A stretch of DNA of 13,593 nt, taken from assembly GCA_022561415.1 (NCBI GenBank), contig JADFRH010000023.1:1-13593 (forward strand), written 5' to 3'. Under the pieces are notes generated by a model that worked only from the letters and a program-made list of their open reading frames with translations, was not told the DNA's origin and made no database searches. The translations under genes were made by a program, and so were the position numbers. This DNA is from Planctomycetota bacterium. GTDB taxonomy: Bacteria; Planctomycetota; Phycisphaerae; UBA1845. How positions within the stretch are numbered: the stretch's first letter is position 1; every line of letters starts with the position of its first letter. Below, one piece after another: positions 1-13,593 of the stretch.

Positions 1-17
1 CAGGGACGGCCCGACTT

Positions 18-440
18 CTATTCGTCCGGGTCAGCAATCGGAAGATGCTGAATTTTTAGTTGCCCCTGCATCTCCCGAATGCGTTTGAAGTCTTGCCTTA
101 TCTCACCTATTGCTTTTCTTACTTCATCGGATTGATCGTCATCTTCCTCGTCGTCAGGACCTGGACAATCCACGGATCCGCCCTGGGCATACAAATAAAC
201 TAAATTGGAGACCGCTTTTTCAAGTTCATTCGACTGGTTCTTATCGAAATCGACCAACGAGTTTTTGACCTTTTGCGCAACAGATTCTGAAATCTGTTCA
301 ATAACCATTTGGGCGCGTTCGTCCCACTTATTGGCATCAGCCTCGAATTCATCTGTCTGTTCGGGGTATTTTGTTTTAAGTGCACGAACTTCTGCGGATT
401 TGAGTTGAAAGTCCCGGTACTTCACCATCGAGTCCAGCAT
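18..440 (-). CDS. Hypothetical acidic, helix-rich protein (140 aa)
   Basis: I do not recognise this protein. The translation is hydrophilic and probably mostly alpha-helical, with many K/E/Q/D residues across residues 15-80. An acidic run (about residues 96-106, DDEEDDDQSDE) is followed by a second predicted helix (108-130). No signal peptide, membrane segment or enzyme motif is visible, and one Cys (92) is present. The start is uncertain: ATG at 438-440 and a second ATG at 426-428 are both in frame, and neither has a convincing Shine-Dalgarno sequence. Base composition is unusual: two 60-base blocks inside it are about 47% and 42% G+C, against about 65% in a block of neighbouring obg. It lies 252 bp beyond the obg stop, behind a repeat element, so it is probably not part of the same operon. 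It may be recently acquired DNA or the 3' part of a longer, frameshifted gene (see findings). Confidence 0.6.
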   Translation of the reverse strand: MLDSMVKYRDFQLKSAEVRALKTKYPEQTDEFEADANKWDERAQMVIEQISESVAQKVKNSLVDFDKNQSNELEKAVSNLVYLYAQGGSVDCPGPDDEEDDDQSDEVRKAIGEIRQDFKRIREMQGQLKIQHLPIADPDE

Positions 441-572
441 CCAGCTTCCCGTCGTCCAACACCTGACCGGCCTGCGACCGGAAGAAACCTTTCGCTTCGT
501 CGTCGGGATCCGTCTTCACTTCTGACCAGGACGCGCGAGACTTCGCGCTGCGCCTTGGCGGGTGTGTGTGGG

Positions 573-698
573 AAGCTATCAGCCATCAGCAGTCAGCCGG
601 AATAATCGTTGACGGTTGAAAGCGTTTGGCTGCTAGCTGATCCCGGGGCGCCGGGAATGGCTGATAGCTGATGGCTTTCGGCTGATAGCTTTTCAAAC
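573..698. repeat. Heptad-repeat (GCTGATR-type) palindromic intergenic element
   Basis: Three runs of 7-base units built on GCTGATA/GCTGATG occur here. One is on the minus strand (573-598, read as GCTGACT-GCTGATG-GCTGATA). Two are on the plus strand: 629-642 (GCTGCTA-GCTGATC) and 660-690 (GCTGATA-GCTGATG-GCTTTCG-GCTGATA-GCT). Around a central perfect 6-bp inverted repeat, TCCCGG (641-646) and CCGGGA (651-656), there is an imperfect outer pair: GTTGAAAGC at 615-623 and GCTTTTCAAAC at 688-698. The right end overlaps the obg stop codon (693-695). The whole looks like a small mobile or expansion-prone intergenic repeat rather than coding DNA. It could also form an RNA hairpin behind obg, but no T-run follows it, so a classic terminator is not supported. 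Confidence 0.7.
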
Positions 699-1700
699 AC
701 CCGCGTCCTTGGATTCCTGCACGAAACTCCACACGAGTTCGGCGAGCCGGGCCACCCCTTTACCACTGACCCCGCTGAGGGGCAACACCTCTTTGCCGAT
801 CGCGTCGGCAAGCTCCCTGCACGCGTCCTCGGTGCCCAGGAGATCCAATTTGTTGCCGGCCACGATCTCCGGCTTGCTTTCCAAACCGGCGCCGTAGCGC
901 TCGAGTTCCTCCCGTACCATGCGATACGCCTCGGCGGCGGTCGTCTCGGTGAACTCGGACCCGACATCAACGAGATGAAGCAGCACGCGCGTTCGCTCGA
1001 TGTGCCGAAGAAAATCGTCTCCCAGCCCGGCGCCGGTGTGGGCGCCCTCGATGAGTCCGGGCATGTCGGCCATGACGAAGCGCCGATGATCGGAGAGCTC
1101 TACGATCCCGAGTTGCGGCTCGAGCGTCGTAAAGGGGTAACCCGCGATCTTCGGATGCGCCTTCGACATTCGGGCGAGCAGCGTGCTCTTGCCGGCATTG
1201 GGCAGCCCGATCACGCCGACATCCGCGATCAGTTTGAGTTCGAGGCGGAGCCATCGCTCCTCGCCCGGCGTACCGGCGTCGAACTCACGCGGAGTCTGGT
1301 GAGACGCCCGGGCGAACCGGGTGTTGCCGCGACCGCCCCTTCCACCCTGCGCGATGCAAATACGCTCGCCGATCACCGATAGATCTTTGACGAGCACCTC
1401 GGTCTCTCGATCGATCAGAAGCGTGCCGGGCGGCAGTTGCAGGATCAAGTCCTTGCCGTTGCGACCGTACATCTTCTTGCTCATCCCCGGCTGCCCGTTG
1501 CCGGCGATCCAGTGATGGCGACCGGAGAAATCCAGCAGCGTGTCGACGCCCGACGTGGCCGCCGCGAAAACGCTCCCGCCGTCACCGCCGTCACCGCCGT
1601 CCGGACCGCCCTTGGCGATATACTTCTCCCGGCGGAAGCTCACGCAGCCGTCACCTCCTTTGCCGGCTTTGATGAAGATTTCGGTGCGATCGATGAGCAT
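693..1700 (-). CDS. obg: GTPase Obg (ribosome assembly, CgtA/ObgE family)
   Basis: Obg is a cytoplasmic GTPase that acts on the large ribosomal subunit during assembly and links growth to the stress response. The 335-aa protein has the canonical layout. The glycine-rich Obg fold occupies about residues 1-156 (KAGKGGDG at 11-18, GGPDGGDGGDGG at 31-42). The G domain follows: G1/P-loop GLPNAGKST at 165-173, switch I YPFTTLEPQLG at 188-198, G3 DMPGLIEGA at 212-220, and G4 NKLD at 283-286. The G5-like LSGVSGKG (308-315) has Gly where most family members have Ala in the SA pair. No C-terminal OCT extension is present, as in many Gram-negatives. The MLIDRTEIF start is the conserved family start although no Shine-Dalgarno is evident. 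It is usually next to rplU and rpmA, but here it follows three beta-propeller genes after a 64-bp gap, and no L21 or L27 gene is in the window. Confidence 0.97.
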   Translation of the reverse strand: MLIDRTEIFIKAGKGGDGCVSFRREKYIAKGGPDGGDGGDGGSVFAAATSGVDTLLDFSGRHHWIAGNGQPGMSKKMYGRNGKDLILQLPPGTLLIDRETEVLVKDLSVIGERICIAQGGRGGRGNTRFARASHQTPREFDAGTPGEERWLRLELKLIADVGVIGLPNAGKSTLLARMSKAHPKIAGYPFTTLEPQLGIVELSDHRRFVMADMPGLIEGAHTGAGLGDDFLRHIERTRVLLHLVDVGSEFTETTAAEAYRMVREELERYGAGLESKPEIVAGNKLDLLGTEDACRELADAIGKEVLPLSGVSGKGVARLAELVWSFVQESKDAGV

Positions 1701-1764
1701 GTGCGTTGACGTTCGGCGGCGCGAGCCCGCTTAGTGCCGGTAAGAATTAGCGACGAGTTCGGGT

Positions 1765-3024
1765 CTATCCGACGTCCAAGGCCATGATGGTCTTGCGGTC
1801 CCGCACGTACAGGGTGCGACCCGCCAGGGTCGGTGCGGCCCACGAATAGCGCTCGGTGATTTCGCAGGTCGAGAGGATATTCAAACCGTCCGGAGACAGG
1901 GTGGCCAGGGCCAGCTTGCCGTCCTCGTCGAGGATGATGACTTTCCCGTCACCGTACACGCAGGTCGCTTTCTTGAATCCGCGCTGTCGCCATGCGATCT
2001 TGCCGGTTTCGAGATTCATTCCCATGAAAAACGCCGGTCCGAAATCCCCGGTCGACCCGTAGACGTAACCGCCGAATTGCACCGCGTTGCCGTGGTGAAG
2101 GCGCATCTTCCGGCTGTACCACAGCTCCTTCGCTACCGTCTTGCCACCCTCCCGGCTGAGGCGAATCGCGCGAGCGCCGGAGTCGTAGGCGGCCGAGCAA
2201 AACAGAATGTCCTTGCCGTCAAAGACCGGGGTCGAAAGATTGGCGCCGTACTGGGTCTTGTGGGGGTGTGACCAGAGGAGTTCGCCACTGTTCGGATCGA
2301 GCCCGACCAGCTCGGACCCCATGAAAAAGACGAGCTGATCTTCGCCTTGGAAGTGGATCAGGATGGGCGAGGCATAGGTTACCTGGAAGCTCTGATCTTG
2401 CCAGATGACGGCCCCATTGGACTGACTGAAAGCGACGACGCTCTGGCCTTCTTTGTCGTCACCGCCGACGGGGAGAATGACGGTGTCGCCGTAGGCGATC
2501 GGGCTGGCGCAATAGCCCCGCCCGGGAACCGTCGCGCCGAACTTCATTACGAGGTCGTGCTTCCAGATCACGTCCCCCGTCTTCTTGTTGAAACAGTGGA
2601 GCAGCATGTTCGTGCCGATCGTGTAGAGGCGGTTCCCGACGATCAGCGGCGTCGAACTCGGTCCGGCACCATATTGCTCCATCAGCTTGGTCGTCGGCGA
2701 AGGGATCTTGTGCTCCCAGAGCGTCTCACCCGTCTTGCGGTTCAGGCTGACGGTGAACTCATCCTGATCGATGCGATACATCACATACAGCGCGTCGCCA
2801 TCGACCAGAATCGTACCGTAGCCGTCGCCGAGTTCTCGGCGCCACAGCTCGCTCGGTCCCTCATCGGGCCATTTGTCGGCCAGGCGAGCGGTGTTGACGG
2901 AGAAGTTTCGCTGCGGTCCCCCGAACTGGGGCCACTGACCATAGCCTGCTGGCACGCCGACAAGAAGGACGACGGCACAGGTCCACGGCAGCAATACGAG
3001 TGGGAACGACGTTCGGCCCTTCAT
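1765..3024 (-). CDS. Exported PQQ-like beta-propeller protein, tandem paralogue 3
   Basis: A 419-aa protein with an N-terminal Sec signal peptide: basic MKGR, then a hydrophobic core to about residue 25, with likely cleavage just before QWPQFGG. The mature part consists of PQQ-like/BamB-type propeller repeats. These show recurring 'TGETLWEH', 'KTGDVIWKH' and 'TGKIAWRQ' blade ends and ends with RDRKTIMALDVG. It is paralogous to the two genes upstream of it: same N-terminal (Q/E)WPQ(F/W)GG motif, 'GPSSTPLIVGNRLY', 'GDGKVIILDEDGKLALAT', and same C-terminal blade. Length suits an eight-bladed propeller; PQQ dehydrogenases are longer, so an enzyme is unlikely. The start is supported by GAGGTG (minus strand, 3030-3035) five bases from ATG. 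It lies 45 bp from the preceding paralogue. It is probably a periplasmic or envelope protein; its ligand or partner cannot be read from sequence. Confidence 0.92.
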   Translation of the reverse strand: MKGRTSFPLVLLPWTCAVVLLVGVPAGYGQWPQFGGPQRNFSVNTARLADKWPDEGPSELWRRELGDGYGTILVDGDALYVMYRIDQDEFTVSLNRKTGETLWEHKIPSPTTKLMEQYGAGPSSTPLIVGNRLYTIGTNMLLHCFNKKTGDVIWKHDLVMKFGATVPGRGYCASPIAYGDTVILPVGGDDKEGQSVVAFSQSNGAVIWQDQSFQVTYASPILIHFQGEDQLVFFMGSELVGLDPNSGELLWSHPHKTQYGANLSTPVFDGKDILFCSAAYDSGARAIRLSREGGKTVAKELWYSRKMRLHHGNAVQFGGYVYGSTGDFGPAFFMGMNLETGKIAWRQRGFKKATCVYGDGKVIILDEDGKLALATLSPDGLNILSTCEITERYSWAAPTLAGRTLYVRDRKTIMALDVG

Positions 3025-3069
3025 GCGTACACCTCTTCTTGAACTTGCGGTGGCGATTCGATGCTCGTT

Positions 3070-4323
3070 TTACCCAAGGTCCAGCGCCACGATCGTATCG
3101 TTGTCTCGCGCGTAGAGTCGCTTCCCCACCAGGATGGGCAAGGTCCACGAGTTCTTCTCTTCTCCCAGGTCAAACAGCTTGAACGATGACAGAACCTCGA
3201 AAGACTTCGGCGAGGCCTTGACCAGCGTGAGGGTTCCTCCTTCGTCAAGGACAATGAGCTTCCCGTCGCCATACACGATCATGCCCTTCGCAAAGCCGCG
3301 CTCCCTCCACGCCATCTCGCCGGTTTCCGCGTGGACGACCGCCAGGAACGAGTTCGGACCATAGCCGGCACATCCATAGAAATGATTTCCCACGCGCACG
3401 ACGTTGCCCTGACCTACACTGGCTTTTCGGTGTGCCCACACTTCTTTGGGATCCGTCTTGCCATCCTTGCGAGCCAGTTTCAGAACCCGGCTGCCCGCAT
3501 CACCCCCTGACGTCGTATAAAGCAGGCCGTCTGAGCCCCAGACGGGCGTCGAAATGTTGGTCTTCCATTGGTTGGCGTGGTCGCGTCGCCAAAGCAGATT
3601 GCCGTTGTCGGGATTCACGGCCACGAGCTCACGATCCACCAGGAGCACGATCTGATCCTGTCCGTCCACGTTGATGACCACCGGCGATGAGTAGACGTTC
3701 TCGAAGTCGTGCTTTCGCCAGACGACGGATCCACTGACCAGATCAAACGCCATGATCCCGTTGCCCTTGCCGCCGCCGGCCACGATCAGCTTTCCCTGAT
3801 ACACGGTGGAACTCGACGCGAATCCGAACTCAGGCGATTTCGCGCCGAACGCCTTGATCAGGTCGTGCGACCAGACGGTCTTGCCGTCTTTCTTCCGCGT
3901 GCATTGCAACATGCCCGCGATGCCCAGCGTGTAAACGCGGTCGCCGGCAATGGTCGGTGTCGAGCGCGGTCCCACGCCGAAGCGCGTCTCGACGCCACTG
4001 GGAACGACGGCCGCGTACCTGTTCTGCCAAACCGTCTTGCCCGTCGAGGCGTCGATCGCAATCACGACCTCCTCTTCGCCGTCGCGATACATCGTGAACA
4101 GCTTGCCGTCGTCCATGGCGATCGACGACAGGCCGTCGCCGAGCGGACGGCTCCACACGCGCTTGGGTCCATCGTCCGGCCACTTGGCGGCCAGACCTTT
4201 GGCGTCGGACTTGAAGTCGCGGTTCGGTCCGCCCCACTGGGGCCATTGCGCCAGCACGGATGTGGACATCAAACAAATAATGAACAATGGGCAGCGCCTT
4301 GGATTGGCCCGATGCGTTTTCAT
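3070..4323 (-). CDS. Exported PQQ-like beta-propeller protein, tandem paralogue 2
   Basis: From the ATG at 4321-4323 this is a 417-aa protein with a signal peptide: basic KTHRANPRR, hydrophobic CPLFIICLMSTSVL, and cleavage likely after VLA before QWPQWGGPNRDF. The frame stays open to a GTG at 4357-4359, but the ATG is preferred. It has a good Shine-Dalgarno (GGAGAAG, 4331-4337 on the minus strand), and the 12 extra residues would spoil the signal peptide. The mature region is a propeller with recurrent blade ends such as 'STGKTVWQN', 'KDGKTVWSHDL', 'DNGNLLWRRD' and 'ETGEMAWRERGF', ending RDNDTIVALDLG. It is closest in the window to the genes on either side. It is probably periplasmic. No catalytic or metal-binding residues can be assigned; dehydrogenase activity is not supported because of the short length and absence of enzyme-specific insertions. 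Confidence 0.92.
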   Translation of the reverse strand: MKTHRANPRRCPLFIICLMSTSVLAQWPQWGGPNRDFKSDAKGLAAKWPDDGPKRVWSRPLGDGLSSIAMDDGKLFTMYRDGEEEVVIAIDASTGKTVWQNRYAAVVPSGVETRFGVGPRSTPTIAGDRVYTLGIAGMLQCTRKKDGKTVWSHDLIKAFGAKSPEFGFASSSTVYQGKLIVAGGGKGNGIMAFDLVSGSVVWRKHDFENVYSSPVVINVDGQDQIVLLVDRELVAVNPDNGNLLWRRDHANQWKTNISTPVWGSDGLLYTTSGGDAGSRVLKLARKDGKTDPKEVWAHRKASVGQGNVVRVGNHFYGCAGYGPNSFLAVVHAETGEMAWRERGFAKGMIVYGDGKLIVLDEGGTLTLVKASPKSFEVLSSFKLFDLGEEKNSWTLPILVGKRLYARDNDTIVALDLG

Positions 4324-4330
4324 TACCGTA

Positions 4331-4337
4331 CTTCTCC
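4331..4337 (-). promoter_or_regulatory. Shine-Dalgarno that sets the start of paralogue 2
   Basis: GGAGAAG on the minus strand, seven bases before the ATG at 4321-4323. It argues for this ATG over the upstream in-frame GTG at 4357-4359. Confidence 0.7.
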
Positions 4338-4371
4338 GTTCATGCGACGACGCAGACACGCGCCCGCCTGT

Positions 4372-5607
4372 TTAGCTTAGATCGAGCGCCATGATAACCT
4401 TCTTGTCCCGAACGTACATCCGGTTACCGACGATGGTCGGCACCGTCCATGCGACATCATCGAACAGCGCAACTTGCGAATGAATCGTAAGGTCGTCCGG
4501 CGTGGCCGTGGCGATCGCGAGATTGCCTTCTTCATCCAGAATAATCAACCGTCCATCGGCCAGCACGGTCGTCGCCTTGGCAAAGCCGCGTTTGCGCCAG
4601 GCGACCTTGCCGGTTTTGATGTTGATGGCCGCGTAGAGGTTAGGTGCTCGAGCCCCGCTCGACCCGAGAACATAATCTCCCATCCTCACCGACGTCACGT
4701 GATAGAACCGAACCTTCTTGTTGATCCAAAGCTCTTCGACGTCGACCTTGTCGCCGTTGCGGGTCAGCTTCAACCCGTGTGAACCGGGTCCGGGCGTCGA
4801 AAAGAACAGGATGTTCTCTTTCTCGTCCCAAATCGGCATGCAGATGTTCTGCGCCGCCCTGGTGCCGATGGCGTAACGCCATTCCACGCGACCGTCGACC
4901 GGGTTGACCCCGATGGCCGCCTCGGCAGTGAGCGTTACGAGGTGGTCCTGGCCGTCGAGCCTGATGATCTTCGGCGTCGAGGAGCTGTTCTTGAAACCAG
5001 GACTTTTCCACCGGACCGATCCCGAGTTCTGTTCGAAAGCCATGAGGCCGACCTCGTCGCCACCCACCAGCACGATCACCGTGTCCTTATAGACGATCGG
5101 GCTCGAGGCATAGCCGTGCTGCAACACCGTTCCTCCGTAGTCGGTCCAGAGGTTGTGTGACCAGTAGGGCTTGCCGTCGTACTTGTTGAGACAGAACATC
5201 TTGCCCGACACGCCGATCGCGTAGAGGCGGTCGCCCACCAGAAGCGGCGTCGAGCGTGGGCCTCGGCCAAACTGATCGGCGTGACCGTCCGCCGGTGACG
5301 AGTCGTACTTGTGCTGCCACAGGGTCTTTCCGGTTTTCGCATCGAGCGCGATGACGATCTCGCGCTCGTCGGCACGATACATCGTGTAGAGTCGATCGCC
5401 CTCGGAGAGTATGGCCGAGTAGCCCTCACCGAGATCACGCGTCCACAACTTCGTCGGACCTGTCTCGGGCCACGTCGTAGTGATCGAGCCGGCGTCGGCC
5501 GAGAAATCCCGGTTGGGACCGCCCCACTGAGGCCACTCTGCCGGCGCCGGTGCCGCGAAGAGGGCGATGGCCATCGTGGCCGCGACATTGCGAATCAGAC
5601 GTTTCAT
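4372..5607 (-). CDS. Exported PQQ-like beta-propeller protein, tandem paralogue 1
   Basis: A 411-aa protein from the ATG at 5605-5607. That start is preceded by a strong Shine-Dalgarno and gives a clean signal peptide (MKRLIRN, then hydrophobic VAATMAIALFAA, cleavage about APA before EWPQWGGPNRDF). An upstream in-frame ATG at 5638-5640 would add 11 charged residues and is less likely. Eight putative blades can be followed. Examples are 'LYTMYRADEREIVIALDA' with 'TGKTLWQH', 'GKMFCLNKYDGKPYWSHNL', 'NSGSVRWKSPGF', 'VDGRVEWRYAIG', 'IKTGKVAWRKRGFAKATT', and a last blade ending RDKKVIMALDLS. It is the first of three tandem paralogues, 48 bp before the next and 68 bp after the more distant propeller gene. 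It is probably periplasmic or cell-envelope; the role is unknown. Confidence 0.92.
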   Translation of the reverse strand: MKRLIRNVAATMAIALFAAPAPAEWPQWGGPNRDFSADAGSITTTWPETGPTKLWTRDLGEGYSAILSEGDRLYTMYRADEREIVIALDAKTGKTLWQHKYDSSPADGHADQFGRGPRSTPLLVGDRLYAIGVSGKMFCLNKYDGKPYWSHNLWTDYGGTVLQHGYASSPIVYKDTVIVLVGGDEVGLMAFEQNSGSVRWKSPGFKNSSSTPKIIRLDGQDHLVTLTAEAAIGVNPVDGRVEWRYAIGTRAAQNICMPIWDEKENILFFSTPGPGSHGLKLTRNGDKVDVEELWINKKVRFYHVTSVRMGDYVLGSSGARAPNLYAAINIKTGKVAWRKRGFAKATTVLADGRLIILDEEGNLAIATATPDDLTIHSQVALFDDVAWTVPTIVGNRMYVRDKKVIMALDLS

Positions 5608-5615
5608 TTTTCTTA

Positions 5616-5624
5616 CTCCTCCCC
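5616..5624 (-). promoter_or_regulatory. Strong Shine-Dalgarno that sets the start of paralogue 1
   Basis: GGGGAGGAG on the minus strand, eight bases before the ATG at 5605-5607. It favours this start over the upstream ATG at 5638-5640. Confidence 0.75.
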
Positions 5625-5675
5625 TGGTATGCTCGGTCATTGTCCAAGCCCCGTCGGGGCCGCAAGTCTAAAGAA

Positions 5676-6860
5676 CTACTTGGCGGCGCCGAAGCAGTAG
5701 ATCATGCCGTCTTCGGTGCCGATGACCAAGCTACCCTCGGCCACCGCCGGCGACGCGCTGATGGGACCACCCGCTTCGAACCGCCACGTCTCCTTGCCCG
5801 TATCGAGTGTGAGGGCATACAGATTGCCGTCTGACGAGCCGATGAACACCCGATCGCCCACGACAACCGGCGAGGAATCAACCCGCCCATTCGTGACGAA
5901 GACCCACTGCGGTTTGCCGGTTATTCGGTCGAGCGCCCGAACTCGCTTGTCCCGACCACCGACAATCACCCAGCGATCGGTGACTGCGGCCGATGACATA
6001 ATCGGAAACTCGCGATCCCCGTCGGCGAACGACCACTCCACGCGGCCCGCCTTCCAGTCGATCCCCAGCATGTGACCGCCGTAGGTTCCGACATACGCGC
6101 GGTGGCCGTGCGTGGCGGCCGACGCCCCGGACACCGAACCCATGCTGATTTTCCTCACGGGTCGGCCGTCGTCGAGGCGCAGCACATGTATGAACTCGTC
6201 ACACCCGGCCGCGATCACATGGCCCGCAGTGATTCCCGGCGTTCCGTGAACCCGGCCCTGTGTCTCGAACTTCCACAGCAGTTTGCCCACCTGACGGGAT
6301 ACACAGTACACAAAACCGTCGTAAGAACCAAACACGAGCCGATCGTCGGCGTGATTCACGGAGGAGATGATTTGATCGTCGGTTGGAAACGTCCATTTTC
6401 CCTTTCCCGAACCCGCATCGACGGCGTGTAAGACGCCCTCGTCATCGCCGACATAGACGGTCCCGTCGATCACCGTCGGTGACGATTCGATCGCCTCTTG
6501 GGCCTTGTATTTCCATTTGACGGAGCCATCCGACAGGTGGAGTGCGAACAGGGTTCCATCGTAACAGCCGACGTACACCGTGCCGTTCACGATGGCGGCC
6601 GATGACGTGACGGCGTCGGGCGCCTCGAACTTCCAACGGACTTTCAGACGATCCGGCAGGCGTGTGTGGGCGATGCCGCGAAGTTGCGGTCCGCCGCGGA
6701 ACATGGACCAGTTGCGCTGTCCTGGTTTTTCGCTCGCCACGGCCTTGGCCGGCTCGCGCTCACCGGCACGTGCCGGGGAAATGAGTAGTGTGGCGCAGAC
6801 GAACGCACAGGCAACCCGTCGGCCTAAGGACGCTCGAACTGTGTCGACAAGGTGAAACAT
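5676..6860 (-). CDS. Exported eight-bladed PQQ-like (BamB-type) beta-propeller protein
   Basis: This has a different propeller subtype from the three genes after it. Eight regular repeats of the form 'VYVGxxDGxLxALDxxTGKxxWxF' can be counted. They include VYVGCYDGTLFALHLSDG, VYVGDDEGVLHAVDAGSG, LVFGSYDGFVYCVSRQVG, AYVGTYGGHMLGIDWKAG, VFIGSSDGNLYALTLDTG, and a final half-blade LVIGTEDGMIYCFGAAK that would close the ring. The N-terminus has basic residues then CAFVCATLLISPARA, a Sec signal peptide. I chose the ATG at 6858-6860 (394 aa) because AGGA lies four bases upstream and the signal peptide then starts properly. An in-frame ATG at 6897-6899, directly abutting the upstream stop, would add 13 residues without a ribosome site. 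True BamB is an outer-membrane lipoprotein; no lipobox is seen, so a periplasmic soluble propeller is more likely. Its ligand is unknown. Confidence 0.9.
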   Translation of the reverse strand: MFHLVDTVRASLGRRVACAFVCATLLISPARAGEREPAKAVASEKPGQRNWSMFRGGPQLRGIAHTRLPDRLKVRWKFEAPDAVTSSAAIVNGTVYVGCYDGTLFALHLSDGSVKWKYKAQEAIESSPTVIDGTVYVGDDEGVLHAVDAGSGKGKWTFPTDDQIISSVNHADDRLVFGSYDGFVYCVSRQVGKLLWKFETQGRVHGTPGITAGHVIAAGCDEFIHVLRLDDGRPVRKISMGSVSGASAATHGHRAYVGTYGGHMLGIDWKAGRVEWSFADGDREFPIMSSAAVTDRWVIVGGRDKRVRALDRITGKPQWVFVTNGRVDSSPVVVGDRVFIGSSDGNLYALTLDTGKETWRFEAGGPISASPAVAEGSLVIGTEDGMIYCFGAAK

Positions 6861-6899
6861 ATCGTCCTGGGAATCGAAGGCCAACCGACCGCTCGGCAT

Positions 6900-7361
6900 T
6901 TACATGGGCTTGAACTTGAGCACCAGTGCAGCACCGGCGGCGGCCACCACGATCCCTGCGTAGAACAGCGGGTTCGGCGCGTTGGCCGGCTTGTGCAACA
7001 TCATCGAGACCAGCGTGTTGACGATCGGCGCACCCGCAAAAACCAACGGCGCCACCACGAGCGGATGACCGCCCGATGTCTTTCGCAGTGCAAACACGAT
7101 GCCGAGCGCGCCGACGGCGCCGAGGATTCCCGCGAACGTCGAGATGAACCCACCCTTCCGCGTGAATTCCAGCGGCTCCGCGCCGGAGAACTTTAGGTAG
7201 GCGATTACGACGATCGAGACGATCAGGTAGGCAAGACCCACGAACAGAAAGGCCCGCAGGGCGCTGTCCTTGCCGAGTGCTTTTTGACCGGTGTGCAGCG
7301 TCGGCACATACGCACCCCAGCAAACAACCGTCACCAACACGAATACCATCCAGAGCTTCAT
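6900..7361 (-). CDS. Small five-TM membrane protein, EamA/DMT half-transporter-like
   Basis: This 153-aa protein is almost entirely hydrophobic, with about five membrane segments (residues 3-20, 37-57, 71-92, 99-121, 131-149). That size and layout equal one half of a ten-TM drug/metabolite transporter. The N-terminal segment contains a WG pair (WGAY, 15-18), as in EamA repeats, followed by YVPTLHTGQKAL. A half-size member would have to dimerise. The start is supported by GAGGGAG (minus strand, 7369-7375) seven bases before ATG. The stop TAA is 39 bp from the next gene's preferred start. The substrate is unknown. Assignment to the DMT superfamily rests on topology and the WG feature only; it could be an unrelated small membrane protein. 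Confidence 0.75.
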   Translation of the reverse strand: MKLWMVFVLVTVVCWGAYVPTLHTGQKALGKDSALRAFLFVGLAYLIVSIVVIAYLKFSGAEPLEFTRKGGFISTFAGILGAVGALGIVFALRKTSGGHPLVVAPLVFAGAPIVNTLVSMMLHKPANAPNPLFYAGIVVAAAGAALVLKFKPM

Positions 7362-7394
7362 CGCGAACTCCCTCTACTTTGCGCGGAACACGTC

Positions 7395-7688
7395 TTAGGA
7401 AATCTTCGCCACCACGCCGCTGAACTCTTCGGCGTCGAAGGCCCGCAACATGGTGGTTCGCACGGCGTTGCCCCGACCGAGTTCGAGCACCACGGCGGCC
7501 GCTGTCGCATCGTCCGGGGCACTCAGAACGATCACACCGTCATGCGACCCGAGCGTCCAAAAGAGCGACTCGACCGTCGCGCCGGCTTTCTCGGCCGAGG
7601 CGCGAAATGCGGCCGATCGCTGTACCGAATCCTTGATCCCCCCGATCCCCTTCTCGGTGAAGTTCAGCAATACTACGTAGCGTGTCAT
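7395..7688 (-). CDS. GYD-domain protein
   Basis: A 97-aa protein matching the GYD family end to end. It begins with RYVVLLNFTEKGIGGIKDS (an N-terminal beta strand plus helix). A central LFWTLGSHDGVIVLSAPDD follows, in which SHDGV occupies the place of the family-defining G-Y-D residues. It ends with the conserved VRTTMLRAFDAEEFSGVVAKI. GYD proteins are small cytoplasmic ferredoxin-like (dimeric alpha-beta barrel type) proteins with no established biochemical role. The start has AAAGG eight bases upstream. It lies 18 bp after the thioesterase gene and 33 bp before the small membrane protein, so it is probably co-transcribed with them. Confidence 0.88.
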   Translation of the reverse strand: MTRYVVLLNFTEKGIGGIKDSVQRSAAFRASAEKAGATVESLFWTLGSHDGVIVLSAPDDATAAAVVLELGRGNAVRTTMLRAFDAEEFSGVVAKIS

Positions 7689-7706
7689 GGTCTTAGCCTT
7701 TCATCT

Positions 7707-8126
7707 TCAGGTCTTGGAGCCTTTTTCCAGAGCTTGACGCAGCCGATCCGGGATCGGCAGGGATTGAAATCTGCCCGCGTCCATTGAACAGCAGACGGCC
7801 GTGGTCTTTCCGAGGGCAACCCGCTCACCCTCGCAGCGAAACTCAATTTCATACTCGACCGAACGGTTTCCGATTTTCACGAGCCGAAGTGCCAGCTCGA
7901 GTTCGTCCTCGAACCGGGCCGGGCGAAAGTACTCGCAACTCGTCGCGACGCGCGGCCAGCTGATCTCTCTTCCCTCCTCCTCCGCCATAACGCACAGGCC
8001 TAGAGAACGCCAAAACGCGTGTTCCACTTCCTCCATGAACCGGTAGTAGTTGGCAAAGTGCAGCACACCGGCCATGTCCGTCTCGGCGAACTGCACCCGG
8101 CGTTTGATGGTAAATGGTTCTGCCAT
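7707..8126 (-). CDS. Hot-dog acyl-CoA thioesterase (4HBT/YbgC type)
   Basis: A 139-aa single hot-dog-fold protein that should hydrolyse acyl- or aroyl-CoA thioesters in the cytoplasm. The diagnostic active-site segment is present: VQFAETDMAGVLHFANYYRF at residues 11-30. Asp17 is in the position of the catalytic Asp of 4-hydroxybenzoyl-CoA thioesterase, followed by the helix EEVEHAFWRSLG. The later strands (RPARFEDELELALRLVKIG, SVEYEIEFRCEGERVALGKT) also fit. The start lies six bases after the symporter stop without a clear Shine-Dalgarno, suggesting translational reinitiation. It is close to a chorismate-lyase-like gene. That makes an aromatic CoA substrate attractive but unproven; YbgC-type short-acyl or DHNA-CoA hydrolysis are alternatives. 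Confidence 0.88.
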   Translation of the reverse strand: MAEPFTIKRRVQFAETDMAGVLHFANYYRFMEEVEHAFWRSLGLCVMAEEEGREISWPRVATSCEYFRPARFEDELELALRLVKIGNRSVEYEIEFRCEGERVALGKTTAVCCSMDAGRFQSLPIPDRLRQALEKGSKT

Positions 8127-8132
8127 GAGAGC

Positions 8133-9767
8133 TTACACCCGACCCCCGAAGAATTTCTGAATCGTAGCGGCGGACGGCGGCCTGGTCACCAGTGACACGA
8201 GAACCAGCGCCGCGGTCGACAGCCCGATGATGGTGGTCACCGGCATCATGTTCAGGAACATGTAGCTTCGGTCGGCCGCGTAGCCCGACTCACGAAACAG
8301 CCACCACCAGACGATCGTGGCCGTGATGACGCTCGCGTAGGCACCGGCCTTGGTCACACGCTTCCAATAGATGGCCGCGAAGACGAGAGGGAACAGGCTG
8401 GCAAACCCGCTGAAACACCAAATGGCCATCGAAAACACACCGCGATCCTTCAGTTTGAGTGCGAGAACGTATGTGATCACGACGATCGCCACGACGAACA
8501 CACGACCGAGCATGACCTTTTGTCGATCGCTGAGACGATCCTTGGCAAGGTAGTGCGATGCAATGTCGTTCGTGAAGATGCTTCCGATGCAGAGGAACTG
8601 TGAGTCGAGAGACGACATGATGGCCGCCAAGATACCGGCCGTCAGAAACCCACCGAGCAGCGGAGAGGTCAGCTTCTTGACCATCAGCGCCAGCACGATG
8701 TTCGGTTTGGCGAGGTCCGGCGGGATGACCCCATGCCCGTTGACCACAGCCGACGTCGCCCACACGCCGATCATGACGCACGGCACCCACACGATCATAA
8801 TCATGAGCGGGTGGGCCACCACGGACAATCGAAAGGACTTGGCCGACTTCGCGGTGAGCCAATGCTGAAACAGGTGTGGGAACATCGCGACGCTGAGCGG
8901 GATAAAGAGGTAGGTCAGGAATCCCAGTCGCGGCACGGACTCGGGCTCGTGCGGCTTGATGATCGCGGCCTCTTTGTCCTGCTCCCAGGCGGCCATTTGT
9001 TTCTCGTAGACCTGCCGATCCGCTTCGGTCACGGTCGACTTGAGCCTGGAGGGGTTGTATTGGCGAACCAGTTGCGTTGCGGCGACCGGACCGCCGAGCT
9101 TGTCGGCGATCGCGAAGAACGTGACGAAGCCCAGGACGATAAACACGATGGTCTGAAACGCGTTGGCCCAGGCCGTGCCGCGCACGCCACCGAAAAACAC
9201 GTAGATCATCACGACCGCACAGATCACGGCCGCCCCGAGCCAATAGGGTACGGCCCCATTGAGACGACCCTCGGCCGGGAACAGATCGGGAAAGGAGCCG
9301 GCCGTGAGGCTCTGAATGACCGAGCCCGCACTGATCACCCCAATGAGCAGATAAGGAATCACGAGTCCCACCAGCACGGGAAAGAGCAGCAGCCCGAGCT
9401 TGTCCGACTCGAACCGATCGCGAAAGAACTGAATCTGCGTGACGTACCCGTACTTCGCGCCGAAGGACCAGAGCTTGATACCGACAAGAAAGAAGCAGGC
9501 GGAATGAATGATGGCCGACCACGACGCCATTCTTCCGTAGGCGCCGATGCCGCCCTTGAACGCCTCGCCGCTGCTGCCGACCAGCGCGAAGGCGGTCATC
9601 GTCGTACCGAACAGTGACATCAAGAGTAGGAACGAACCGATGCCGCGAGACGCGAGAAAATAGTCGGCGGCCGTGCCGCGAAAAAAACGATTGCTGAACA
9701 GGCCCAGTGCCAAGAGCAGTCCCAGATAGCACACGACGACAACGACCGCGATCTGTCCGGGGTTCAT
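8133..9767 (-). CDS. Sodium:solute symporter family (SSS) transporter
   Basis: A 544-aa inner-membrane protein with about 13 hydrophobic segments and the SSS hallmarks. These are an early unwound-helix region SLFGTTMTAFALVGSSGEAF (51-70), the VFFGGVRGTAWANAFQ motif (190-205), and AAIMSSLDSQFLCIGSIFTND (381-401). In the last, Ser385/Ser386 match the Na2 sodium-site Ser/Ser-Thr pair of the family. A charged hydrophilic stretch at about 233-280 interrupts the membrane core; it is rich in K/E/R/D and longer than in many members. The start has GGAGGTG (minus strand, 9772-9778), and the ATG overlaps the TGA of the DUF3311 gene (ATGA), so the two are translationally coupled. Substrate cannot be read from sequence; pantothenate, proline and small organic acids are typical of the family. 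Confidence 0.93.
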   Translation of the reverse strand: MNPGQIAVVVVVCYLGLLLALGLFSNRFFRGTAADYFLASRGIGSFLLLMSLFGTTMTAFALVGSSGEAFKGGIGAYGRMASWSAIIHSACFFLVGIKLWSFGAKYGYVTQIQFFRDRFESDKLGLLLFPVLVGLVIPYLLIGVISAGSVIQSLTAGSFPDLFPAEGRLNGAVPYWLGAAVICAVVMIYVFFGGVRGTAWANAFQTIVFIVLGFVTFFAIADKLGGPVAATQLVRQYNPSRLKSTVTEADRQVYEKQMAAWEQDKEAAIIKPHEPESVPRLGFLTYLFIPLSVAMFPHLFQHWLTAKSAKSFRLSVVAHPLMIMIVWVPCVMIGVWATSAVVNGHGVIPPDLAKPNIVLALMVKKLTSPLLGGFLTAGILAAIMSSLDSQFLCIGSIFTNDIASHYLAKDRLSDRQKVMLGRVFVVAIVVITYVLALKLKDRGVFSMAIWCFSGFASLFPLVFAAIYWKRVTKAGAYASVITATIVWWWLFRESGYAADRSYMFLNMMPVTTIIGLSTAALVLVSLVTRPPSAATIQKFFGGRV

Positions 9768-10000
9768 GCGTCACCTCCGGCCGTGGTATCACTTCGTGTC
9801 GTGTCTTCTTCGAGCCCTGCAGGCCAGCAGTACCTGACCGCCATCGCCCAGAGAATCGCGGCCACGACCGAGACGCCGGCCTGGTAGGCGAGTCCGATCG
9901 GGACAAACCCCAAGACGAGCGGATCGATCCGGTCCCACCACCAGAAGTCCTGGTGAACAATCGCCAGGAGCACGATCAGGCCATAGACAAATCGTTTCAC
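9764..10000 (-). CDS. DUF3311-like small membrane protein, symporter partner
   Basis: A 78-aa protein with two membrane segments (about 3-17 and 30-56), an aromatic link HQDFWWWDRIDP, and the pattern DPLVLGFVPIGLAYQAGVSV. This matches the short DUF3311 proteins that commonly precede SSS symporters. The start codon is GTG (9998-10000), chosen because a strong AAGGAG (minus strand, 10010-10015) lies nine bases upstream and the N-terminus MKRFVYG then leads directly into a membrane helix. Its stop overlaps the symporter start by four bases. It is probably an accessory subunit or assembly factor for the symporter; the family has no firmly established mechanism. It is 39 bp after the halogenase-like gene. 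Confidence 0.8.
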   Translation of the reverse strand: MKRFVYGLIVLLAIVHQDFWWWDRIDPLVLGFVPIGLAYQAGVSVVAAILWAMAVRYCWPAGLEEDTTRSDTTAGGDA

Positions 10001-10009
10001 GAAGAGGGT

Positions 10010-10015
10010 CTCCTT
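10010..10015 (-). promoter_or_regulatory. Shine-Dalgarno for the GTG-initiated DUF3311 gene
   Basis: AAGGAG on the minus strand, nine bases before the GTG at 9998-10000. It supports the non-ATG start. Confidence 0.7.
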
Positions 10016-10039
10016 TGGGGCATCGCCGCCCGAGGAATC

Positions 10040-11290
10040 TCAGCCGGTCTCGAGCCGAACCGGAGCGGGAAGGGTAGTCCATTCCCGCATCACGTCAAAG
10101 ACCTCGCCTACTTCGTCGTTGAAGATATCACCAATGAGCAGGCGAACGATGTGGTCGCGATATTCGGGATGTTTTCGGCTGAACGCCCCGAAGCTAAATT
10201 CTCGATCGTAGAACACGTACACAAGCCGGCGAATCAGATGTAGCCCGGCCGCCAGCTTGGGGCCGAAGCAACCGAGGCGCTCAGCCGATACATCGCCGGC
10301 GCTGAGCGCATCGTGAATGGCATCCGCCGCGAATTCGCCGCTCTTGAGCGCCAGGAACACGCCGGACGAATAGACCGGATCGAGGAAGGCGAATGCATCG
10401 CCGATGAGCACCCAGCCGTCGCCGGCCACGCGCTTCGAGCGGTAAGAAAAATCGCTCGTGACATAGGCCTGACTGACGCGCTCGGCGCCATCCATTCGGC
10501 GCCGAATGCCCGGACAATTGGCGATCTCTTCTTCGAGGGTTTGCAGCGGCTGGTCGCCGCGCCCGGTGCATAGGTAACTCGGCGGCGCGACGACGCCGAT
10601 GCTCGCGACGTCATCGGAAAGCGGAATGTACCAGAACCATCCCTTGCGCTCGGGCGTGTGAATGATAATCGTCGCACCGCCGTCGCGACCCTCGTCGCGG
10701 TGTGTTCCTTTGTAGTAGGCGTAGATGGATGCGTTGCGCAGCGCCTCGTCGGGCTCGCGAATGTCGAGCTGGCGCGAGAGGACGGCCGACATGCCGGTGG
10801 CATCGACCACGACCTTGGCCCGAATTTCTTTAACGGCGCCGTCCACGACCGCGCGAACACCCACGGCCTTCTCACCCTCGAACATGACCTCTTTGACGCC
10901 AACGCCCTCGCAAACCTCCGCGCCGTGCTCGCGGGCGTTGTCCAGCATCATTTTGTCGAACTCGTCTCGCCTGACCTGCCAGGTGATCGAGCGTTCGTGT
11001 GGGTCTCGATCCGTAAAGTAGTAGGGCTGCGAATCGGAACCGGACGCCGAGACGAACTGAACGCTCTCTTTGCGTGGATAGGCCGAGGCTTTGAGTTTGT
11101 CGAGCACGCCGAGACGTTTGAACGTGTCGTAGGTCTGCGGCATGAGCGATTCGCCGATGTGATGGCGGGGGAACGTCGCCCGCTCGAGAACAAGCACCGA
11201 GCGACCGAAATCGGCGAGCAGCGTAGCGACCGTGGCGCCGGCCGGTCCGCCCCCGATGATCACACAGTCATAGTCTTTGCTAGTCGGCAT
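10040..11290 (-). CDS. Flavin-dependent halogenase-like FAD oxidoreductase
   Basis: A 416-aa member of the tryptophan-halogenase/geranylgeranyl-reductase-like FAD family. The FAD fold shows GGGPAG at 13-18, VLERATFPRHHIGESLMP (34-51), and the second FAD motif GDAFAFLDP at 297-305. Both sequence features used to recognise flavin-dependent halogenases are present. One is a WxWxIP motif (WFWYIP, 218-223). The other is FxxPxxSxG (Phe302, Pro305, Ser308, Gly310). Lys74 in PRKESVQF lies where CmlS-type enzymes carry their catalytic lysine, though that alignment is by eye. It would need reduced FAD from a separate reductase; none is seen nearby. No Shine-Dalgarno is visible; the gene starts 43 bp after the chorismate-lyase-like gene. 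It could halogenate a phenolic product of that enzyme. A non-halogenating monooxygenase or dehydrogenase of the same family remains possible. Confidence 0.85.
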   Translation of the reverse strand: MPTSKDYDCVIIGGGPAGATVATLLADFGRSVLVLERATFPRHHIGESLMPQTYDTFKRLGVLDKLKASAYPRKESVQFVSASGSDSQPYYFTDRDPHERSITWQVRRDEFDKMMLDNAREHGAEVCEGVGVKEVMFEGEKAVGVRAVVDGAVKEIRAKVVVDATGMSAVLSRQLDIREPDEALRNASIYAYYKGTHRDEGRDGGATIIIHTPERKGWFWYIPLSDDVASIGVVAPPSYLCTGRGDQPLQTLEEEIANCPGIRRRMDGAERVSQAYVTSDFSYRSKRVAGDGWVLIGDAFAFLDPVYSSGVFLALKSGEFAADAIHDALSAGDVSAERLGCFGPKLAAGLHLIRRLVYVFYDREFSFGAFSRKHPEYRDHIVRLLIGDIFNDEVGEVFDVMREWTTLPAPVRLETG

Positions 11291-11333
11291 GGGTGGTTGT
11301 GTTGGAAATCAGAAGCCGGGGTTGCCGGCTATG

Positions 11334-11909
11334 TCACTCGAGCGGCGCGCCGGTCACGACCTCCAGTAGCTCGATGGCCGGCTGGTCATCGCAATAAATG
11401 GTACCCACGCGCCCATACGTATCGAACGCGGTCGCGCAGTCAAACGATTTCAGTAGCCGCGCTTGCGGACCGAGCCGCAGGTACCACCTCGGCTCGATCC
11501 GGCGGAGCACGTCGTGTTCGATCAGAATGTCGCCGAGCGGCGTGTCGCGCCGCAGGATCGCCTCACGCACCGGCTCGGTCGTAAACGACAGATCGATTCT
11601 CACCAGGCCGCACTCAACGATGGTATCCGAACCGGTCGGTGTGAGCACGACTTGTCGGTGGTAAAGATCGTCCTCAATCTGTTCGTGCAGAACCCGAAGC
11701 TCGACCGGACGACCGTAGTGGCCGGTGAGCGTGGTGGTCATGTGATCGTGATGCACCAGGAGGTCGTGAAACGGAGGAGGGATTTCGTCGGGTCCAACCT
11801 CGTGTACGGTCGTTGCGGCGATCTGCGCCGCCGTGAAGCCGTCGCACAAGTCCCTCAGCGCCTCGTCGACGCTCTTGTAGTCGATCAATCGTGGTCGCAC
11901 CGGAGTCAT
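11334..11909 (-). CDS. Chorismate-lyase-like protein (UbiC / DUF98 family)
   Basis: A 191-aa cytoplasmic protein. The pattern PFHDLLVHHDHMTTTLTGHYGRPVELRV (46-73), YHRQVVL (83-89), GLVRIDL, then TPLGDILIEHDVLRRIEP (123-140) and PAIELLEVV (177-185) fits the chorismate pyruvate-lyase fold. By eye, Arg85 corresponds to UbiC Arg76, Leu125 to UbiC Leu114 (TPLG segment), and Glu183 or Glu180 to UbiC Glu155, so the active site looks intact. The expected reaction is chorismate to 4-hydroxybenzoate plus pyruvate. Its ATG overlaps the stop of the radical SAM gene (ATGA, 11906-11909), so the two are translationally coupled. The flavin halogenase-like gene follows. No ubiquinone genes (ubiA, ubiD) are in the window, so 4-hydroxybenzoate may feed a specialised product. 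Identification is from motif recognition only. Confidence 0.75.
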   Translation of the reverse strand: MTPVRPRLIDYKSVDEALRDLCDGFTAAQIAATTVHEVGPDEIPPPFHDLLVHHDHMTTTLTGHYGRPVELRVLHEQIEDDLYHRQVVLTPTGSDTIVECGLVRIDLSFTTEPVREAILRRDTPLGDILIEHDVLRRIEPRWYLRLGPQARLLKSFDCATAFDTYGRVGTIYCDDQPAIELLEVVTGAPLE

Positions 11910-13246
11910 GTATAGCGGATGCTCCGAAACTGCGGCTCGAAGAAACGGAGCATCAGCCCATCAGCGCAGAGCAGGCCGCTGCGGGTCAGACGCATCTCAT
12001 CGCCATCGACCTGAGCAAATCCGTCGTCGACCAGCGATTGGATCGGCTCGGCAAACACATCCGACACCTCTACACCGAACTTATCGCGGAAATAGGCCGC
12101 ATCGATGCGCCCGAGCTTCAGCTGCAACGCAAACTCGCGGATCAATCGCTGATGGTCGGTCACCGGAAGCGCCCGGGCGATGGGAAGCTCGCCTTCCTGT
12201 AGCGTCGAGACGTAGGTCTCCCAGTCATCGGCGTTTTGGAAGTGCATACCGGCGACGTGCGAGAACGAGGCCACGCCGGTGCCGATCATGTCGGCCCCGC
12301 GCCAGAGCGCGTCGCGATAGATGAAGTCCACCTGCCGCCCGTTGATGGCCGGCTTCGTCACGGTGTAGGCACTCGATACGACGTAACCCGCCTGCTCGAA
12401 CTGGCAAAACGCATAATCGACCCAGGCGCGCTTGGTGGCCGTGTCTGCCACCGAGATCGACTTGCCGGTTTCCTTGGCCTCGCGCACGAAGACCGTGTTG
12501 TGCGGCAGTTCCATTTGATAGATCGTGAGACTGTCGGGAGCGAGCTCGAGCGCGGTGGCGACGGCCTTTTTCCACTTGGCCTCGGTGTCGCCGAGCAGAC
12601 CCGCAATCAGGTCGATGTTGAGATGATCGAACCCGACCTCGCGGGCCATGTCGTAGGCGCGAAAAACGTCAGGCGACTTGTGCCCCCGCCCGTTGAGCGT
12701 TAGCACGTCGTCGTCGAAGTGCTCGACGCCCAGGCTCAGCCGTGTTACGCCAATGGCCTTGACCGTTTCGAGCTTGCTCTTGCGAAACGTGCCCGGCTCG
12801 CACTCGAACGTGACCTCGCGCGCGGCGTCCCACCGCCAGTGCTTCGAGATGCGGTCGATCAGGCGCTGAAGCTGATCGCTACTGAGAAACGACGGCGTGC
12901 CGCCGCCGAAGTAGACAAAGTCGAACTCGCGACCCGCGAACGCGGACCGCTGGGCGTACAGTTCCGTCTCGTGAGCGAGAGCGTCGATGTACGTATCGAC
13001 GTCGTTCGAGTTCTTGTCGGTGTACACGCGGAAGTAGCAGAACTTGCAACGCTGCCGGCAAAACGGAATGTGAAGATAGAGCCCCAGCGGCGCCGCGTCG
13101 GTGCCGGCCGCCTTCGCATCCAGCGATTCGATGGCGGCCGGAACGTTCTGGGGCGTCCATACCGAAAACGGCGGATAGTTCGCGATGAAATAGTTGCCGA
13201 CCTCCGGCGATCCCGAAGCAATTTGCACTTCCATAGGCCTGTTCAC
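11906..13246 (-). CDS. HemN/HemW-like radical SAM enzyme
   Basis: A 446-aa protein from the GTG at 13244-13246; the in-frame ATG at 13232-13234 (442 aa, AGG four bases upstream) is about equally plausible. The radical SAM 4Fe-4S motif is CRQRCKFC (Cys63, Cys67, Cys70), inside LYLHIPFC...FRVYTDKN. The SAM-binding GGGTPS is at 114-119, and FECEPGTF, LSLGVEHFDD and LNIDLIAGL follow as in HemN-type TIM barrels. A HemN C-terminal domain covers about 360-436. The fourth Cys of true HemN is replaced by Phe72, so coproporphyrinogen oxidase activity is unlikely. The HemW heme-chaperone HNxxYW-like motif is also absent; the place is taken by FIYRDALWRGADMIGTG. It therefore belongs to a specialised HemN-like subgroup, some of which catalyse methyl transfer or cyclopropanation in natural-product pathways. 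It is the first gene of the leftward operon. Confidence 0.9.
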   Translation of the reverse strand: MNRPMEVQIASGSPEVGNYFIANYPPFSVWTPQNVPAAIESLDAKAAGTDAAPLGLYLHIPFCRQRCKFCYFRVYTDKNSNDVDTYIDALAHETELYAQRSAFAGREFDFVYFGGGTPSFLSSDQLQRLIDRISKHWRWDAAREVTFECEPGTFRKSKLETVKAIGVTRLSLGVEHFDDDVLTLNGRGHKSPDVFRAYDMAREVGFDHLNIDLIAGLLGDTEAKWKKAVATALELAPDSLTIYQMELPHNTVFVREAKETGKSISVADTATKRAWVDYAFCQFEQAGYVVSSAYTVTKPAINGRQVDFIYRDALWRGADMIGTGVASFSHVAGMHFQNADDWETYVSTLQEGELPIARALPVTDHQRLIREFALQLKLGRIDAAYFRDKFGVEVSDVFAEPIQSLVDDGFAQVDGDEMRLTRSGLLCADGLMLRFFEPQFRSIRYT

Positions 13247-13310
13247 TCACTCGACAAGACCGCCCACCGGCACCTCACCATCCAATCGATCAAGGCAATC
13301 GGGCACGGCC

Positions 13311-13335
13311 TTTCCGGCTCTTACTATACCGGAAA
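13311..13335. promoter_or_regulatory. Inverted repeat TTTCCGG-N11-CCGGAAA, candidate operator or 5' leader hairpin
   Basis: A perfect 7-bp inverted repeat, TTTCCGG at 13311-13317 and CCGGAAA at 13329-13335. It lies 64 bp upstream of the radical SAM start, and the 11-base spacer overlaps a TATAGT sequence (minus strand, 13323-13328) that could serve as a -10 element. No good -35 is seen at the right distance. A dimeric regulator binding here would cover the -10; alternatively the arms could pair in a leader RNA. Confidence 0.4.
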
Positions 13336-13351
13336 ACGCCTGTGTTTGCTC

Positions 13352-13380
13352 TGTAACAACCTGTCAGACATAGAGTTACA
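13352..13380. promoter_or_regulatory. Concentric dyad TGTAAC-N4-TGTC-A-GACA-N4-GTTACA, candidate operator
   Basis: Two inverted-repeat pairs share the same centre at 13366. TGTAAC (13352-13357) pairs with GTTACA (13375-13380), and TGTC (13362-13365) pairs with GACA (13367-13370). Twenty of 28 flanking positions are symmetric. It sits about 106 bp upstream of the radical SAM start in a stretch visibly richer in A+T than the genes. This is the form expected of a binding site for a dimeric transcription factor; the regulator is unknown. Confidence 0.4.
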
Positions 13381-13395
13381 AACGCTATGACCGCG

Positions 13396-13593
13396 TTATG
13401 ACTGGGTATGGGCCGAGCGGTAGATCGCGTGCAGCTCGGGCGCCTCGTCGGGCCCGACGACCTTCGCGCCGGACGCCATCAAGATCGCCGAACCAGGCCG
13501 GTGCCGCAGCCCAGGTCAAGAACATGGTATCTCAACGCCGGGATATACCCATCACTAACCGCGGTCAATTTTGCTCCATTGATGACTTTGTTC
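13396..13593 (-). pseudogene. Broken class I SAM-methyltransferase remnant, cut by window edge
   Basis: Reading leftward from the edge, one frame gives an uninterrupted translation that ends in YHVLDLGCGTGLVRRS and a TGA at 13479-13481. VLDLGCGTG is the SAM-binding motif I of class I methyltransferases (encoded at about 13497-13523). The protein stops right after this motif, whereas a functional enzyme needs 100 or more further residues. In the next frame the coding-like text continues as ILMASGAKVVGPDEAPELHAIY and onward to a TAA at 13396-13398, so a frameshift or deletion junction lies near 13480-13490. I cannot tell whether the two pieces came from one gene. The remnant's 5' part is outside the window. 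A sequencing error cannot be excluded. Confidence 0.6.

Follow-up and report, generated by a model that had tools for sequence, protein, structure and literature searches.

What do three genes that recur side by side in planctomycetes make? The question is raised by a window of 13,593 nucleotides (assembly GCA_022561415.1, contig JADFRH010000023.1, positions 1 to 13,593) from a Planctomycetota bacterium of the Phycisphaerae (UBA1845), whose minus strand encodes, in this order, a HemN-like radical S-adenosylmethionine (SAM) protein, a chorismate-lyase-like protein and a flavoprotein resembling flavin-dependent halogenases (Table 1). A preliminary description had proposed that the trio makes and halogenates 4-hydroxybenzoate. 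We find that the trio is a real conserved module of known enzyme kinds, as seen in its gene order, predicted folds, conserved key residues and co-occurrence, with a predicted chemistry; we estimate at about one in two the probability that it provides the core enzymes of a pathway by which planctomycetes make and tailor 4-hydroxybenzoate. Among the papers listed in searches of open PMC, none describes this trio in its title or abstract opening.

Retention of the three genes in planctomycetes

Occurrence was analyzed in 393 planctomycete genomes, for which a completeness of 90 had been requested. The lyase was found in 121 of them (E ≤ 1e-3) and the radical SAM protein in 142 (E ≤ 1e-80, a count that may take in a paralog, that of G185 at 1.9e-91). 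The flavoprotein matched in 180 genomes at E ≤ 1e-60, 39 of which had neither of the other two. Its E values leave a clear gap from 1e-96 to 1e-110, and the cut-off of 1e-100, chosen once this gap had been seen, retains 142 genomes. With the latter cut-off, 120 genomes hold the whole trio and 249 none of the three. Of the rest, 20 lack only the lyase and 1 only the radical SAM protein, while 2 have the radical SAM protein alone and 1 the flavoprotein alone. The earlier claim that the three genes belong together is borne out, with 120 of the 121 lyase genomes carrying the radical SAM gene and all 121 the flavoprotein gene. Fisher's test of lyase against radical SAM protein gives 9e-77, a value that ignores kinship and is therefore not a true probability.

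The radical SAM gene lies directly upstream of the lyase gene in 46 of the 120 trio genomes and no more than 20 kb away in another 22; in the remaining 52 the two are further apart or on separate contigs. The surviving argument is that all three genes are retained jointly even by genomes in which they lie apart. Lyase and flavoprotein genes adjoin in at least 47 genomes and the full ordered trio occurs in at least 33, both being lower bounds because they derive from 59 listed flavoprotein places chosen by eye; the placement of the prenyl synthase, with 32 places entered, is likewise a lower bound. As a yardstick we used a prenyl synthase fusion present in 114 genomes (117 minus three that match the synthase part only), which agrees far less with the trio: it occurs in 92 of the 121 lyase genomes, is missing from 29 full-trio genomes and is found in 10 genomes with no trio gene.

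A scan of lyase neighbourhoods, with one genome per species and 80 of 153 loci kept, revealed two contexts. The radical SAM gene stands in the lyase locus in 34 of the 80, and the fusion of DUF116 to a prenyl synthase in 38, with both in one locus and neither in nine. The flavoprotein gene is also present in 30 of the 34; among the other four, L015 and L022 end at a contig edge, whereas L039 and L069 do not. The gap between radical SAM and lyase genes measures -11 to +55 bases in 31 of the 34 loci, and the clustering of the trio is not chance. The named sequences nearest to the window come from Phycisphaerae and further planctomycetes. Planctomycete names appear in 79 of the 80 locus titles, L045 being Candidatus Kuenenia, itself a planctomycete. 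L011 is labelled Alphaproteobacteria, yet its gene order equals that of Phycisphaerae loci such as L013, so that its bin was probably mislabelled or is a mixture.

In the second context, which we call Planctomycetia type by its genes and by the titles of the records (L042 is without a class name; L030, a member of the Planctomycetaceae by title, has the gene order of the Phycisphaerae type), the lyase gene comes after a squalene-hopene-cyclase-like gene and the prenyl synthase, with the DxDD motif kept in 29 of 29 cyclase-like proteins and DDxxD in 38 of 38 synthases. The search for the same gene order in other genomes, proposed earlier, found it in the radical SAM–lyase–flavoprotein loci; the Planctomycetia-type lyase is tied to isoprenoid genes that lay outside the earlier scheme. 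When 15 genomes (nine of the first context, six of the second) were searched, the radical SAM protein was found in all 15 and the flavoprotein in 14, G022 having no match at E ≤ 1e-10; the best match in G020 was 39% identical. In second-context genomes the radical SAM gene is usually elsewhere in the genome, not lost.

Among the called proteins of 20 regions from 19 of the 22 genomes with radical SAM protein but without lyase, no lyase was detected (best E value 0.17); the whole genomes of this set were searched with the first lyase profile only. One of these regions (L148) has an operon that is otherwise similar but in which the radical SAM and flavoprotein genes adjoin directly; in six regions the radical SAM gene lies beside a thioesterase gene. 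These arrangements suggest that radical SAM protein and flavoprotein may be the tightest pair, the acid being supplied in more than one way, or that the lyase may be too divergent to detect.

Predicted activities of the three proteins

The lyase-like protein belongs to no Pfam family even at E ≤ 10, and of 38 relatives 2 hit PF01947, with a best E value of 0.037. Its predicted fold is that of a chorismate lyase. R85 aligns by sequence with UbiC R76, and E183 pairs with UbiC E155 through the structural end-points (190 to 162, no gap assumed), plain sequence alignment being off by one residue; both are kept in 50 of 50 relatives, as are the UbiC motifs MT, PLG and GR. We take R76 and E155 to be the UbiC catalytic pair. 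Fold and matching residues support the assignment to the UbiC/DUF98 superfamily, as proposed earlier, with chorismate lyase as the predicted activity. A DUF98 lyase elsewhere in the genomes was looked for with PF01947 only (PF04345 was not searched in planctomycetes), and 0 of 24 genomes exceeded the cut-off.

The flavoprotein matches Trp_halogenase with 92 bits. K74, W218, W220, P223, F302, P305, S308 and G310 are invariant in 43 of 43 relatives, and G13, G15, G18 and I222 are conserved in at least 90% of them; these positions fall in GxGxxG, WxWxIP and FxxPxxSxG, which, with the catalytic lysine, are presumably halogenase motifs. K74 aligns with a lysine in PltA, Mpy16, Bmp2 and FasV, and the structure is nearer to halogenases of the PltA/Bmp2/FasV group than to geranylgeranyl reductases or hydroxylases. 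A grouping with geranylgeranyl reductases, which the preliminary description had named as the outcome that would speak against its halogenase assignment, was thus looked for structurally and not seen; the corresponding model (TIGR02032) is also disfavoured by score (144.3 bits versus a cut-off of 158.8), and the CmlS equivalog (NF033113) was rejected at 210 bits versus 900. We infer a flavin-dependent halogenase-like protein, with halogenation of 4-hydroxybenzoate as the predicted reaction. Among the matches listed in plasmid records, the best identity was 37% for the flavoprotein and 32% for the radical SAM protein, with none at 60% or above.

The radical SAM protein matches Radical_SAM (80 bits) and HemN_C (29.5 bits), and its profile picks out HemN and NocN in the PDB, the NocN match covering the SAM domain only (E = 6.7e-36, profile search). 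Y57, C63/C67/C70, Y112, R169 and D212 are kept in 19 of 19 aligned relatives. In HemN and NocN a tyrosine stacks on the second SAM, and Y57 is its counterpart; Y112, R169 and D212 correspond to NocN Y96, R153 and D196, while NocN S225 is replaced by T241 and the substrate residue R230 by glutamate (roles of the SAM-II contacts and of R230 as given in parts of PMC12871812). Since the second-SAM tyrosine and the NocN contact residues are conserved, sequence comparison fairly suggests a class C enzyme that uses two SAM molecules, with predicted methyl transfer, although the tyrosine and the cysteines are also present in HemN, which is no methylase.

Other identities were rejected by score. The protein reaches 192.2 bits for HemW (TIGR00539, cut-off 205.4; three orthologs 167–177), and a separate HemW scoring 254–285 bits is present in five of five genomes tested. 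Scores are likewise below cut-off for HemN coproporphyrinogen oxidase (TIGR00538, 186 versus 325 bits), STM4012 (187 versus 380), HutW (180 versus 400) and NF006385 (134 versus 355), a model named coproporphyrinogen III oxidase family that we take to represent a menaquinone methylase. The fourth cysteine of CxxxCxxCxC, important for HemN, is missing: the motif reads CRQRCKFCYF in the window and CHKLCYFCGC in HemN. The trio is a reason to examine a HemN-family enzyme outside heme metabolism. Paralogs 45–48% identical to members of the radical SAM cluster occur in L138, L139 and L140; in L138 the neighbours match XdhC and MobA-like families and a molybdopterin enzyme of the xanthine-dehydrogenase type. 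These paralogs possibly have a second HemN-family role, in molybdenum enzyme maturation.

Proposed pathway and competing readings

In the proposed pathway, whose every reaction, step order and product are predictions, the lyase-like protein would convert chorismate to 4-hydroxybenzoate and pyruvate, and the flavoprotein, with FADH2, oxygen, halide and its key lysine K74, would halogenate the aromatic ring, ring oxidation being the main alternative. The HemN-like protein would bind two SAM molecules and, like NosN and NocN, methylate an sp2 carbon, either in the ring or in the activated acid; in loci whose radical SAM gene comes with genes for a GcvH-like carrier and an AMP-ligase-like protein, the acid may be bound to that carrier. 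The thioesterase would serve release, the dehydrogenases further reduction and the transporter export. In Planctomycetia-type loci the prenyl synthase and cyclase would act around this core, with prenylation, and the end product would be lipid-like or exported. From the earlier scheme of a halogenated-aromatic pathway, the lyase assignment, the halogenase grouping and the gene association stand; its comparison with Bmp enzymes proved loose and the module wider than three genes.

The bmp pathway of marine Pseudoalteromonas makes bromophenols, with Bmp5, not Bmp2, acting on 4-hydroxybenzoate and Bmp2 brominating a carrier-bound pyrrole. The Bmp structure nearest to the flavoprotein is Bmp2 (Bmp5 lay outside the comparison), and the bmp scheme, as we know it, contains no HemN-like radical SAM enzyme, SSF transporter or isoprenoid genes, unlike the planctomycete loci. 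NosI and NosJ work beside NosN, a class C radical SAM enzyme that methylates an aromatic acid bound to a carrier. The trio resembles NosN and NocN in its HemN-family protein with second-SAM residues kept and, in some loci, in AMP-ligase-like and GcvH-like carrier genes; it differs in that the carrier is GcvH-like and not an acyl carrier protein, the window's radical SAM protein has a lyase as partner, and methylation is predicted. Aryl polyene and xanthomonadin clusters combine a chorismatase, an AMP ligase and a halogenase-like protein. They share hydroxybenzoate supply and a halogenase-like flavoprotein with the trio, which has instead a UbiC-type lyase and a radical SAM protein. Divergent flavoprotein relatives stand beside related genes in an aryl-polyene-like arrangement at L146:925-3275 and L147:7494-11549; in L147 a neighbour matches an FkbO/Hyg5-like chorismatase and an AMP ligase is also present.

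It is common to regard halogenase-like genes as scattered genes of secondary metabolism, whereas here one accompanies a lyase and a radical SAM protein in 120 of 393 genomes, including those with the genes apart, which predicts a shared uncharacterised aromatic product. According to parts of a 2025 review (PMC12078418), planctomycete halogenated products include 3,5-dibromo-p-anisic acid (strain 10988), whose pathway and genes are only postulated, a chlorinated fatty acid of Rhodopirellula baltica, and alichondrichlorin from Alienimonas chondri, a 4-hydroxybenzoate ester of a chlorinated fatty acid whose genes are unknown. Dibromoanisic acid and alichondrichlorin resemble the expected chemistry in being halogenated and/or 4-hydroxybenzoate-derived, while the chlorine of alichondrichlorin is on the fatty part (same parts of PMC12078418). 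The trio thus supplies candidate genes for such compounds, and an R. baltica genome (L071, G024) holds all three, a single, suggestive case. A more specific version is doubtful: that a widespread pathway of planctomycetes, with the trio as its conserved core, leads to a halogenated, C-methylated 4-hydroxybenzoate lipid, exported to the envelope and in Planctomycetia a meroterpenoid through the linked prenyl synthase and cyclase, and that the known halogenated phenolics and 4-hydroxybenzoate esters are visible branches of it.

Three other explanations were weighed. Were the flavoprotein a hydroxylase or dehydrogenase, the product could be an envelope lipid, quinone-like or meroterpenoid, derived from 4-hydroxybenzoate by prenylation and without halogenation: the lyase would supply 4-hydroxybenzoate, a prenyltransferase add the chain, the flavoprotein oxidise the ring and the radical SAM protein C-methylate it. 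We consider this somewhat unlikely, given that the key halogenase motif residues are invariant and that the prenyl synthase fusion tracks the trio more loosely than its own members do; UbiA proteins are uninformative, because they are present in 14 of 14 control genomes as well. It is improbable that the module belongs to a pathway for lipids or the envelope, with the lyase fold serving for binding or as a scaffold, as in the UTRA domain, and the other two proteins acting on an acyl or isoprenoid chain, since a mere binding domain would not need the invariant UbiC R76/E155 equivalents and MT, PLG and GR motifs.

Shared ancestry could raise co-occurrence, presence may follow clades and the Fisher test is uncorrected for kinship, so that the three genes might be neighbours by inheritance only, with separate housekeeping roles, the radical SAM protein being for instance HemW. 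Against this stand the separate HemW of all five genomes tested, the scores of the trio's radical SAM proteins (window and three others) under every cut-off compared, the retention of the genes in many genomes where they are apart and the clearly worse agreement of the linked fusion of similar prevalence; we regard this reading as very improbable, and retain that of a 4-hydroxybenzoate pathway. Links to ladderane gene clusters (parts of PMC2649909 mention radical SAM twice, but chorismate, squalene and halogenase never) and to methyl-plastoquinone (a term absent from the related open-PMC papers listed) were rejected.

The wider gene neighbourhood

Gene calls confirmed the coordinates and spacing given earlier: the radical SAM and lyase-like genes share a 4-base ATGA overlap, and 43 bases separate the latter from the flavoprotein gene. 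The radical SAM gene starts with GTG, with an in-frame ATG 12 bases further in. As a unit the three genes do go together, but the module is wider than first described, with DUF3311, symporter, thioesterase, GYD and membrane protein genes downstream.

Table 1. Minus-strand genes of the trio and its surroundings (positions in the window).
Feature	Coordinates	Strand	Description
Radical SAM gene	11906..13246	-	HemN-like radical SAM protein, 446 aa; CxxxCxxC at residues 63-70; HemN_C domain
Lyase-like gene	11334..11909	-	Chorismate-lyase-like, 191 aa; R85/E183 equivalent to UbiC R76/E155
Flavoprotein gene	10040..11290	-	Flavin-dependent halogenase-like, 416 aa; GxGxxG, K74, WxWxIP 218-223, FxxPxxSxG 302-310
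DUF3311 small protein, 78 aa	9764..10000	-	35.8 bits versus cut-off 30; overlaps symporter gene
SSF-family sodium:solute symporter, 544 aa	8133..9767	-	Relative in 23/34 radical SAM–lyase loci
4HBT-type thioesterase, 139 aa	7707..8126	-	Relative in 24/34 radical SAM–lyase loci
GYD-domain protein, 97 aa	7395..7688	-	Relative in only 3/34 radical SAM–lyase loci
Small protein without family, 153 aa	6900..7361	-	Hydrophobic, probably membrane; relative in 22/34 radical SAM–lyase loci
PQQ-type beta-propeller protein	5676..6899	-	Relatives follow in several loci; pathway membership uncertain

Relatives of the DUF3311 protein occur in nine loci (cluster c14). A set of AMP-binding-like, aldehyde dehydrogenase and iron alcohol dehydrogenase genes is present in 10 to 12 of the 34 radical SAM–lyase loci, the AMP-binding Pfam match being above cut-off in one of two members tested, and AMP-binding-like, aldehyde and alcohol dehydrogenase genes also precede the radical SAM gene in three of six fetched second-context regions. 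Directly after the radical SAM gene, a GcvH-like gene was observed in seven loci, L132–L137 (six second-context genomes) and L069, with its identity checked by PF01597 in L136; the other loci collected by then gave no GcvH-like match. This gene occupies the place of the lyase in Phycisphaerae-type loci, suggesting that the radical SAM protein may act with a lipoyl-type carrier.

The DUF116–polyprenyl synthase fusion of the second context (for example L076:7933-9828) usually follows the squalene-hopene-cyclase-like gene, and in all 11 sequences aligned its DUF116 part has the same eight cysteines; DUF116 had no mention in the related open-PMC papers listed. Within the window, no RNA families or tRNAs were detected, no polyketide-synthase gene was among the called genes, and promoter-like sites numbered one, versus 1.9 expected by shuffling. 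A terminator-like stem lies at 11330-11314 on the minus strand, inside the 43-base gap, and may be due to chance, since the scanned stretch has 11 sites of this kind where 7.3 were expected. Four consecutive genes at 1765-6899 cluster as one family, the last being the PQQ-type beta-propeller gene (the one tested), and relatives of this family recur near the trio in other loci.

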